Assembly: GCA_902779165.1 (NCBI GenBank)
Contig: CACZAN010000007.1
Location: 21,163 to 85,162 of the forward strand
Direction: 5' to 3'
Length of the DNA: 64,000 nucleotides
From: an uncultured Bacteroidales bacterium
GTDB taxonomy: Bacteria > Bacteroidota > Bacteroidia > Bacteroidales > Bacteroidaceae
The position numbers and the translations under genes were made by a program. Positions 12,991 through 15,550 of this stretch are shown here, in pieces. The number at the start of each line of letters is the position of its first letter. Position 1 is the first letter of the stretch. The notes under the pieces were generated by a model. It had not been told where the DNA came from. It saw only the letters and a list, made by a program, of their open reading frames with translations, and searched no databases.

Positions 12991-13003
12991 TTTTGTTGTT
13001 CCT

Positions 13004-13027
13004 ACATTTCGTCATCTCGTAATTTCG
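13004..13027. repeat. Inverse copy of the CGAAATNN octamer array
   Basis: On the minus strand this reads CGAAATTA, CGAGATGA, CGAAATGT, the same 8-bp family as 5770-5816. It fills most of the gap between uxaC and the transporter gene. Confidence 0.75.
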
Positions 13028-13046
13028 TAAACATTATTTTACTAAC

Positions 13047-14567
13047 ATGAATAAGAGTAATTGGCGCTGGTGGCTGTGCGGCCTTCTCTTTGTCGCCACC
13101 ACAGTAAACTATCTCGACCGACAGGTCCTTTCGCTGACATGGAAGGACTTTATAGCACCAGAGTTTCATTGGACGAACTCCGATTACGGTAGCATTACCG
13201 CCGCTTTCTCGTTGTTCTATGCTTTCGTCAGTCTCTTTTCAGGAAAGTTCATCGACTGGGTCGGCACGAAGAAAGGGTATCTCATCGCTATCTTTGTCTG
13301 GAGCTTGGGTGCTTGTCTGCATGCGGGTTGTGGTTGGTTGACGATGCACATCCATGGCTTGGAGAGCGTGGAAGCACTGAGACTGGTGGAGGCAGGCAGC
13401 ACGCTGGCACTCGCCATCTCGACCACCAGCGTGTGGCTTTTCATGGTCTGCCGTATGGTGCTGGCTGTCGGTGAGAGCGGTAACTTCCCTGCTGCCATCA
13501 AGGTCACGGCTGAATACTTCCCCAAGAAAGACCGGGCACTGGCCACCAGTATTTTCAATTCCGGAGCTTCTGTGGGAGCCTTGGTGGCACCTGTCACCAT
13601 CCCCTTCCTTGCCAGCGCCTACGGCTGGGAGTGGGCTTTCATCATCATCGGTGGTCTTGGTTTTCTGTGGATGGGCTTTTGGTATTATATGTATGAGAAG
13701 CCTGAGCAGAGCCGGCACGTGAATGAAGCGGAGCTGGAGTATATCAATCAGGATGAGATAGACTCTCCCCCCGCCCTCCCTGTTAGGGAGGGAGCAGAAT
13801 GTGAAGAGCAGGCATCCGCTTCGCAATCCTCGATTGTATCCGCTCCCTCCCTAACAGGGAGGGCGGGGGGAGAGTCTGAATCCTCTGGCATTTCTATTTG
13901 GAAATGCTTCACCATCCGTCACACTTGGAGCTATATCTGTGGCAAGTTCTTCACCGATGGTGTCTGGTGGTTCCTGCTTTTTTGGGCACCCGCCTACTTC
14001 AGCGACCAGTATGGCTACCGCAGTGACTCAGCGATGGGTGCCACGCTCATCTTTATCGTTTATCTCATTGTTACCCTTGTCAGTATCGCTGCCGGTGGCT
14101 ATCTGCCCAAGTACTTCATCGAACGACGTGGTATGGAAGCGTATGCAGGACGACTGCGTGCTATGTTGATGTTTGCCTTCCTGCCTGTCTTCTCCCTCTT
14201 CGCGCAACCGTTGGGCGCTTACAGCGCTTGGTGGCCGGCTATCATCATTGGCTTGGCAGGCGCAGGACACCAGTCGTGGTCTGCTAACCTTTACAGCACC
14301 GTAGGCGACATGTTCCCCAAGAGTGCTGTTGCAACGATTACAGGAATCGGAACGATGACTGGTGGCATCGCCTCTTTCGCTATCAACAAAGGAGCCGGTT
14401 GGCTCTTCGACTATAGTGATGCACAAGGTTCCGCCTTCCAATTCCTCGGCTTCGAGGGAAAGGAAGCAGGCTATATGATAATCTTCTGCTATTGTGCTGT
14501 CGCTTACCTTATTGCTTGGGCGTGTATGAAGACGCTCGTACCACGTTATAAAAAGGTGGAGCTCTGA
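13047..14567 (+). CDS. MFS hexuronate transporter (ExuT-like)
   Basis: A 506-residue inner-membrane transporter of the anion:cation symporter branch of the MFS, probably importing glucuronate or galacturonate with protons. Hallmarks are the N-terminal TTVNYLDRQVLSL in TM1 and the TM4 segment RMVLAVGESGNFPAAIKVTAEYFP. About twelve membrane segments can be counted. The central cytoplasmic loop carries an unusual insert (about residues 239-277, rich in Pro, Ser, Ala and Glu) encoded entirely by a 116-bp palindromic DNA element. The insert sits between the two six-helix bundles, where a flexible loop is tolerated, so the gene is probably still functional. Confidence 0.93.
   Translation: MNKSNWRWWLCGLLFVATTVNYLDRQVLSLTWKDFIAPEFHWTNSDYGSITAAFSLFYAFVSLFSGKFIDWVGTKKGYLIAIFVWSLGACLHAGCGWLTMHIHGLESVEALRLVEAGSTLALAISTTSVWLFMVCRMVLAVGESGNFPAAIKVTAEYFPKKDRALATSIFNSGASVGALVAPVTIPFLASAYGWEWAFIIIGGLGFLWMGFWYYMYEKPEQSRHVNEAELEYINQDEIDSPPALPVREGAECEEQASASQSSIVSAPSLTGRAGGESESSGISIWKCFTIRHTWSYICGKFFTDGVWWFLLFWAPAYFSDQYGYRSDSAMGATLIFIVYLIVTLVSIAAGGYLPKYFIERRGMEAYAGRLRAMLMFAFLPVFSLFAQPLGAYSAWWPAIIIGLAGAGHQSWSANLYSTVGDMFPKSAVATITGIGTMTGGIASFAINKGAGWLFDYSDAQGSAFQFLGFEGKEAGYMIIFCYCAVAYLIAWACMKTLVPRYKKVEL
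13762..13877. repeat. Palindromic GC-rich element inserted in frame in the transporter gene
   Basis: Two perfect 35-bp inverted arms (13762-13796 and 13843-13877) flank a 46-bp spacer. Each arm also contains its own small hairpin (CTCCCTGTTAGGGAG). The left arm begins GACTCTCCCCCCGCCC and the right arm ends GGGCGGGGGGAGAGTC. The whole unit is open in the transporter frame. A diverged relative lies in frame at 33239-33337. Confidence 0.9.
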
Positions 14568-14580
14568 AAAGAAGTTAGAT

Positions 14581-14713
14581 AAGTTATGTGGCCTTTAGCC
14601 ATGGAAGTAATGTCGCGATGCGACGGAAGTTTCCGAATTATCAAGGTGTTGCGAGTACCAAACGATGTAGATTACTTCTTTATGACATTCCGTGGCTGAA
14701 CGCCACATAACTT
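14581..14713. terminator. Long imperfect hairpin between convergent hexuronate genes
   Basis: AAGTTATGTGGC at 14581 pairs perfectly with GCCACATAACTT at 14702. The next segments, AGCCATGGAA (14597) and TTCCGTGGCT (14688), also pair with one G-T. The interior holds the smaller hairpin CGGAAGTTTCCG. It lies between the stop codons of the transporter and SDR genes, so it can stop transcription from both sides. It lacks a classical T-run, so a small mobile element is also possible. Confidence 0.6.
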
Positions 14714-14737
14714 CTCGATAAGCGTAGCTCGCTAAAA

Positions 14738-15550
14738 CTACATTGCGAAGGCATTGAAGCCACCGTCGACCACTGCGACGGTTCCGGTTACAAAGCGCGA
14801 CGCATTAGAAATCAGGTAATGAATGGTGCCGCAGAGTTCTTCGGGTTCTCCCATGCGGCCGAAGGGGGTCTGACGAATGACATCCTGTCCGCGTTGCGTG
14901 AAGCTACCGTCGGGATTCGTCAGTAGTGAGCGGTTTTGCTCCGTGATGAAGAACCCTGGAGCGATGGCGTTCACACGTATGCCTTCGCCGAATTTCTTGG
15001 CGCACTCGGTAGCCATATAGGCCGTGAAGTTCGAGATACCGGCCTTTGCGGCAGCATAGCCACAGACACGTGTCATCGGACGGAAGGCTGCCATTGAAGA
15101 GAAATTGACGATGGCGCCACGCTTTTGAGCCGCCATGGGACGCAGGAACACCTGAGTGGGGATGACCGTGCCCGTGAGGTTCAGGTTCAGCACCGTCTGG
15201 AACTGTGCCGGATCTAAATCGAAGAACGTCTTATCGGGAGCGATGGTGGCACCGGGCATATTGCCTCCTGCGGCGTTCAGCAAGGCGTCCACACGTCCGT
15301 ATTTTTCCACAATTTCATCGCAGTTTTGCTGTACCTTGGCAATATCGAGCACGTCTGTTTCGAGGAACATAGCCTCGTTACCTGCAGCCTGGATTTCTGC
15401 CACGATAGCGTTGCCGACTGCGGCCTTGCGACCAAGAATAACGACCTTAGCACCTTCTGCGGCCAGGTATTTGGCGATGGAACGGCCGAGTACGCCTGTA
15501 CCGCCTGTGATGACAACAACGTTGTCTTGAATGTTAAAGAGAGAAGACAT
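14738..15550 (-). CDS. SDR-family D-mannonate oxidoreductase
   Basis: A 270-residue short-chain dehydrogenase that probably reduces D-fructuronate to D-mannonate with NAD(P)H, replacing UxuB. The Rossmann motif TGGTGVLGRSIA lies at about residue 16, the NAAGG segment near 92, the catalytic Ser in NFSSMAAF near 150, and the YxxxK motif in GYAAAKAG near 165. The C-terminal VTGTVAVVDGGF is typical of the family. The substrate is inferred from the position 59 bp downstream of uxuA on the same strand and from facing uxaC. Similar SDRs sit in hexuronate loci of other Bacteroidetes. Confidence 0.87.
   Translation of the reverse strand: MSSLFNIQDNVVVITGGTGVLGRSIAKYLAAEGAKVVILGRKAAVGNAIVAEIQAAGNEAMFLETDVLDIAKVQQNCDEIVEKYGRVDALLNAAGGNMPGATIAPDKTFFDLDPAQFQTVLNLNLTGTVIPTQVFLRPMAAQKRGAIVNFSSMAAFRPMTRVCGYAAAKAGISNFTAYMATECAKKFGEGIRVNAIAPGFFITEQNRSLLTNPDGSFTQRGQDVIRQTPFGRMGEPEELCGTIHYLISNASRFVTGTVAVVDGGFNAFAM

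Follow-up and report, generated by a model that had tools for sequence, protein, structure and literature searches.

The best-known translated palindromes are those of Rickettsia and Wolbachia, which live as obligate intracellular bacteria. The genome of an uncultured Bacteroidales bacterium (GenBank assembly GCA_902779165.1, contig CACZAN010000007.1) holds a perfect palindrome in frame within a membrane transporter gene, and the locus raises the question of what kind of element this is and how a gene can take it up and stay whole. Here, we analyzed the palindrome within a 64,000-nucleotide stretch of this contig, referred to as the window, and compared it with further copies in the same genome, in relatives, and in other genome records. 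We conclude that it is very probably one copy of a translated, mobile, nonautonomous palindrome, REPIN-shaped and similar in its behavior to the Rickettsia palindromic elements (RPEs).

Table 1. The palindrome and its host gene, in positions of the window
Feature	Position	Strand	Description
Host gene	13047..14567	+	MFS transporter, hexuronate-transporter-like, 506 aa; from the ORF list; Pfam MFS_1 1.2e-52, residues 14-444
Palindromic element, whole	13760..13877	.	118 bp, flanking A/T included; core GAC...GTC of 116 bp at 13761-13876
Left arm	13760..13795	+	36 bp; translates as DSPPALPVREGA; inner hairpin 13774-13792
Spacer	13796..13841	+	46 bp; frame 0 open on both strands; varies among copies
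Right arm	13842..13877	-	exact reverse complement of left arm; translates as APSLTGRAGGES; inner hairpin 13845-13863

The first-pass annotation had described two identical inverted 35-bp arms, each with an inner hairpin, around a spacer. Its spacer length stands, the arms are one base pair longer, the whole element has 118 bp, and the 116-bp core is shifted by one position (Table 1); the inner hairpin was confirmed in each arm as CCCTCCCTGTTAGGGAGGG, 10 nt from the terminal GTC. This inverted repeat is the strongest in the transporter loop (it scores 36, and the best of 200 shuffles scores 10), and the RNA fold predicted for the palindrome reaches −95.8 kcal/mol, against −45.9 ± 4.2 for 200 shuffled sequences (z = −11.9). 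No known RNA family reached its gathering score in window positions 13000 to 14800. Another inverted repeat, imperfect and with arms of 29 nt (86%), lies directly 3′ of the transporter gene, at 14578-14716, and has partial short matches only, at three places on one other contig of the genome.

As had been proposed from the letters of the DNA, the palindrome is read in frame in a loop of an MFS transporter, as residues 239 to 277 (39 residues, DSPPALPVREGAECEEQASASQSSIVSAPSLTGRAGGES) free of stops. In a crude Kyte-Doolittle scan, the insert falls between hydrophobic segments 197-215 and 329-347; the scan detects only 9 segments, so the transporter topology is approximate. The protein is presumably a hexuronate transporter, a label that we take by eye from the neighboring ORFs (uxaC-like upstream, SDR and uxuA-like downstream). 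Alignment of ExuT homologues, set beforehand as a check, bore out the expectation that other genera are without the palindrome residues. The nearest homologue by identity (genome G018; 91 to 92% over two matched pieces) has a short loop without the element. Such loops hold other repeats too. In G018 (L056), the loop has a perfect palindrome of 16 bp that is unrelated in sequence and is read in frame, and in G020 (L055) it has a distinct inverted repeat with many GGAGCAAGG-like motifs. Inspection by eye shows a related palindrome in the G015 loop and a degenerate right arm in the G019 loop. Counting our own, 4 of 30 ExuT loops have a significant inverted repeat, in three different sequences, and the site has the look of a landing place for palindromes.

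The element is one of many. Its 116-bp core has 93 matches in its own genome, a count that includes single arms and takes palindromes on both strands, and thus more than the second copy whose absence would have refuted the first-pass annotation. The stretches around these matches hold 65 units at ≤5 edits. Two types of unit sequence predominate (GACTCTCCCCCCGCCC... and GACCCACCCCTCACCC...), ending in AGTC or GGTC. Among 60 relatives, with at most 14 candidates scored per genome so that high counts are lower bounds, the element was matched in 17 of 36 genomes of the same genus, and none of the 24 genomes that represent other families in the order had a match. A family-wide survey that scored two candidates per genome found matches in 45 of 301 genomes (own included), across 10 of 30 genera, and those outside the genus are mostly single-arm matches. 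The exact 30-mer of the arm occurs in at least 110 stretches of genome contigs; the 80 matches listed are from Bacteroidaceae, Prevotellaceae, or Bacteroidales metagenome-assembled genomes (MAGs), and the source animals named among them are goat, sheep, reindeer, and roe deer. Presence is patchy across sister species. We ruled out an assembly artifact, as many MAGs that were assembled separately contain the family and further genomes do too, and we rejected phage or plasmid transfer, as no match was found in phages, plasmids, or (with the exact 30-mer) viral contigs.

How does a gene accommodate such an insert? We collected inverted arm pairs of 90 to 126 bp, of which 45 were found and 41 kept after 4 with poor arms were dropped. 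These compact copies (12 from the own genome, 20 from named records picked by the exact arm 30-mer, and 9 from relatives) are not all independent, since orthologous or duplicate rows such as L015/L151, L138/L172, and L122/L077 are included. Their lengths are mostly 113, 116, or 119 bp and equal 2 mod 3 in 39 of 41. In 38 of the 41, the copy lies within a single open frame-0 stretch, read from GAC and extending at least 40 codons to each side, and 31 also passed a codon-usage filter on both sides. In the own genome, an open ORF surrounds each of the 12 compact doublets, and 9 of these pass the codon filter; of those that failed it, L019 and L020 have Pfam domains flanking or spanning the element, and L018 is taken as coding from its open frame. 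The misfits are L106 (111 bp), whose left arm stands in a different frame, L080 (105 bp), whose frame is closed, and L122, which is truncated by the end of its locus; L122 has the same spacer and left flank as L077, a copy that fits, and the two seem to be one copy.

On either strand, 32 of the 41 compact copies keep frame 0 open, the other frames being mostly closed, and both orientations of the element are used as coding sequence. Being palindromic and 3n+2 long, the element yields identical arm peptides from either strand, usually DSPPALPVREGA...APSLTGRAGGES in either orientation. The final TC codes for Ser regardless of the third base supplied by the host. Single arms likewise occur in frame within genes. 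When all arms, compact or not, were passed through a first filter, 15 of 41 in the own genome and 52 of 125 in named records lay inside coding ORFs, the rest being at or between genes or unplaced. Putative decayed copies in relatives still keep the frame.

The genes that carry the element are unrelated to one another. From a selection of candidate hosts, 19 proteins were scanned and 17 found a Pfam family; the host proteins of L025 and L027 found none. Hosts in the own genome comprise the MFS transporter, an Fer4 protein, AcrB, PurL (FGAR-AT), MazG, HisRS, a DHH/DHHA1 protein, altronate dehydratase, an HATPase (histidine kinase), and MutS2/Smr, and a GH2 gene holds a wider arm pair. The altronate dehydratase (L020:1503-3098) has two elements, a decayed copy standing 44 residues before the intact one. 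In L134, L163, and L143, the arms enclose 100 to 150 bp of host-like coding sequence, all of it in frame. Another palindromic in-frame coding family (SPGPSPVREG...SPLPNRGGAGEGA; L027:4099-4200 and L017:4793-4837) is apparently a relative of the element with different arms.

Homologues beyond ExuT likewise are without the insert in most cases. For HisRS, 32 relatives were matched and 18 aligned, and all 18, of the same genus, have a plain loop without the element. For PurL, 29 were matched and 20 aligned; the element is absent in 19, and only G019 shares the insertion of the own genome (the G019 stretch shown is identical to named record L151). Because the HisRS and PurL loops are variable, neither an exact empty site nor a target duplication was definable in them.

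Comparisons between copies show that the element moves whole, because near-identical spacers sit in unrelated genes. Spacer identities of 100%, 95%, 89%, 89%, and 86% were found between copies whose 100-bp flanks are no more alike than unrelated sequences; the 100% pair joins the copy in the own-genome HisRS gene (L017) to one in another gene (L121, RUG11694). The first-pass annotation had read the perfect arms as a sign of recent insertion or gene conversion. Recency need not follow: in the PurL insertion, orthologous in two species, the copies show 1 difference over 70 arm positions, 12 over 43 spacer positions (28%), and a divergence of 17 to 20% in the flanks. Perfect arms are no clock, since these arms are near-identical despite the divergence of their spacer. 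Sequence comparison points to gene conversion or selection as what upholds the likeness of the arms.

Set beside known systems, of which the cited descriptions are taken from excerpts of the papers, the element behaves as RPEs do and has the architecture of a REPIN, and at least one defining feature tested is lacking for each. RPEs are reported as multicopy elements of ∼100 to 150 bp, in frame in unrelated conserved genes and with a conserved peptide, in Rickettsia and in Wolbachia too (PMC2229807, PMC10969869). Ours is likewise a multicopy palindrome (compact form mostly 113 to 119 bp), in frame and open in unrelated genes, and this part of the RPE-like behavior proposed at the outset is sustained. 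Membership in the RPE family does not follow from it: the phylum is another, and the units end in AGTC or GGTC, whereas a terminal CGTC tag, absent here, is reported for the RPEs of R. conorii (PMC3733652). Compared by description only, near-constant arms with a variable spacer, a frame open on both strands, and junction pairs (described below) stand beside the RPE pattern as features of the present family.

REPINs are described as inverted hairpin doublets with a spacer, also found as singlets, the doublets being extragenic (PMC3116915). Two inverted hairpin units around a spacer, and single units too, are found here, but the arms have no GTAG, the compact copies lie within genes, and no good unit stands beside the RAYT-like genes fetched. 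GTAG- and CGTC-tagged REPs are reported within ORFs, often as dimers, where they encode 20 to 30 amino acids, although most REPs are intergenic; in the recB genes of two Xanthomonas species, different REPs occupy about the same site (PMC3733652). Translated repeats within ORFs are common to both, whereas our arms carry neither tag and the compact form is genic. In subclass 2.4 of TnpA-REP (Cyanobacteria, Bacteroidetes, and others), frame-keeping REPs lie in the transposase's own gene, between the HuH and Y motifs (PMC6006769); the frame-keeping insertions are alike, but the hosts here are many unrelated genes. Perfect inverted repeats in protein genes of Nematomorpha mitochondria have both arms encoding conserved regions (PMC6649704), whereas the palindrome here is an added, mobile segment. 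For MITEs, which share terminal inverted repeats with a parental IS and go with a target duplication, the comparison yields the presence of inverted repeats, in loops too variable to define a duplication.

The remark that such behavior had not been described for Bacteroidetes needs narrowing, as in-frame REP insertions in the TnpA-REP genes of a subclass that is abundant in Bacteroidetes, and CGTC-type REPs in this phylum, are in print (PMC6006769, PMC3733652, as excerpted). What remains of it is that, by the titles and abstract openings of the open-access papers that our searches listed, we found no translated palindrome family in many Bacteroidetes genes. We regard these elements as translated mobile palindromes of a new variety.

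What might move them? The canonical Y1 transposase (Pfam PF01797) was rejected as the mover, as several element-rich draft genomes (among them G015, G016, G018, G019, and G029) had no match to it. A divergent RAYT-like family is marked by an HUH motif, a YxxDNP-type motif, and a long C-terminal part. It was matched in 29 of 61 genomes, and our own genome has 14 pieces that match. Its proteins score E values of 5e-11 and 2e-7 with the NCBIfam model REP_Tyr_transpos, both below the cutoff. With phylogeny ignored, RAYT-like matches accompany all 9 genomes that have ≥12 element matches versus 12 of 28 others (Fisher p 0.002), and 14 of 18 element-bearing versus 7 of 19 element-free genomes (p 0.014, again ignoring phylogeny). 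By this co-occurrence of sequences, a RAYT-like HUH protein is perhaps the mover. The divergent RAYT-like proteins occur in several copies (L042:1857-3011, L043:1701-2729, and L313 to L318), many with variable-length low-complexity linkers between the HUH and tyrosine motifs.

These proteins bear on a narrower version of our explanation, compatible with it, in which the element is a true REPIN whose cognate RAYT, a divergent HUH/Y1 protein with a long C-terminal extension, excises and copies it as single-stranded DNA, the in-frame copies being survivors of random insertion. We hold this to be a serious possibility that falls somewhat short of an even chance. The inverted hairpin doublet and singlets would suit it, as would the RAYT-like matches in the own genome and in all of the high-copy genomes, together with the subthreshold NCBIfam scores. 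It is opposed by 4 element-bearing genomes without a RAYT-like match, by arms without GTAG, and by compact doublets that are genic, REPIN doublets being reported as extragenic in the excerpted account (PMC3116915). In addition, 22 fetched RAYT-like loci, part of such genes, contained no element unit at ≤3 mismatches; two unit matches with 4 mismatches in 20 lie in RAYT-like loci, more than 1 kb from the gene start.

Arm pairs also occur in a second arrangement. Wider pairs of 127 to 260 bp (46 rows, of which 11 are own and 35 named; some overlap or are orthologous) often span a gene junction, with one arm just 3′ of a stop codon and the other in the N-terminus of the next gene. Where an upstream stop stands just before the left arm, the best open coding frame of the downstream gene is frame 0 of the right arm in 22 of 26 pair-orientations (the remaining 4 comprise 2 in frame 2, 1 in frame 1, and 1 without coding); 9 further wider pairs lie within a gene. 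That count was made without a frame condition, which is built into a frame-filtered junction set of 23 of the 46 pairs. An ATG is present in 20 of these 23, and the right arm starts 27 to 36 nt behind it in 13 pairs and 57 to 84 nt behind it in 7, several of which, by eye, resemble signal peptides. In most of the 15 relatives shown, nadC starts near M(L/Y)(S/T)V-ELNDRL; the N-terminus in our genome reads MNENNLSIQSAPSLTGRAGGES-VKELIDRL and, by eye, G019 has both arms in decayed form and G016 a one-arm remnant, all in frame. In L016 (2993-3176), the left arm of a junction pair is apparently split by ∼40 bp of other sequence. In L023 (2535-3020), the stop-side and start-side arms of an apparent single junction are ∼480 bp apart, and the arrangement is therefore without fixed spacing. 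We found no description of junction pairs in the titles and abstract openings of the open-access papers that our searches listed.

Folding predicted an arm-to-arm duplex in 19 of 20 junction pairs, around an interior that averages 29% G+C. Across the same 20 pairs, predicted start-codon accessibility is unchanged by the arms (0.549, versus 0.546 with shuffled arms), and we rejected the idea that the arms raise it. Initiation in Bacteroidetes has been proposed, in the excerpted source, to proceed without Shine-Dalgarno pairing and to favor unstructured 5′ leaders (PMC3155529); on this account, GGAGGG-rich arms may be better tolerated in coding sequence in this phylum. A bolder thought, which we rate as unlikely, is that the family evolved for life inside translation, with the compact form as an insert for either orientation and the brackets at operon junctions, with one hairpin just after the upstream stop and the other in frame after the next start codon or signal peptide, as marks or insulators of start sites. 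If so, the start codon would stand in an AU-rich loop between brackets, and a selfish palindrome would have turned into a genome-wide punctuation system.

A related alternative is that the palindromes are not mainly selfish and are retained for a function in RNA or DNA, such as mRNA stability, start-site framing, or nucleoid or gyrase binding. The nearly unchanged arms of the orthologous PurL copies would be expected of such a function, and so would the junction pairs, set just after stops and in frame after start codons, with their predicted duplexes. We think it quite improbable, given the patchy presence among sister species, the near-identical spacers in unrelated genes, and the indifference of start-codon accessibility to the arms. 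Least probable is the removal of the palindrome by RNA excision or ribosome bypassing, leaving a host protein of ancestral length: the extreme hairpin and the conserved genes hit, such as HisRS and PurL, could be cited for it, but an open frame and matching phase would be needless in a skipped insert, yet both are kept by nearly all compact copies despite spacer divergence, and apparent decayed copies in relatives are still in frame.

We thus return to a translated, mobile palindrome and suggest the following course for it. The family has multiplied in the genomes of a genus whose named carriers are Bacteroidaceae and Prevotellaceae MAGs, mostly from ruminants. Since the compact form holds a 3n+2 length and an open frame, entry in the right phase would add 33 to 40 residues (DSPPALPVREGA-variable-APSLTGRAGGES) and leave the gene unbroken, and palindromy would let one frame serve either orientation. 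Copies would persist in loops and linkers, where the added residues are perhaps present in the mature protein and nearly neutral, and would diverge as ordinary protein sequence while their arms stay alike through homogenization or continued selection. The element would be mobilized in trans, and the RAYT-like HUH proteins that these genomes encode may be what moves it.

Translated palindromes are now found in gut bacteria of another phylum, in genes as conserved as those for HisRS and PurL. With apparent decayed in-frame descendants in sister species, the seeding of protein loops by selfish DNA becomes traceable species by species, and selection for the translatability of an element on both strands becomes testable with this family.
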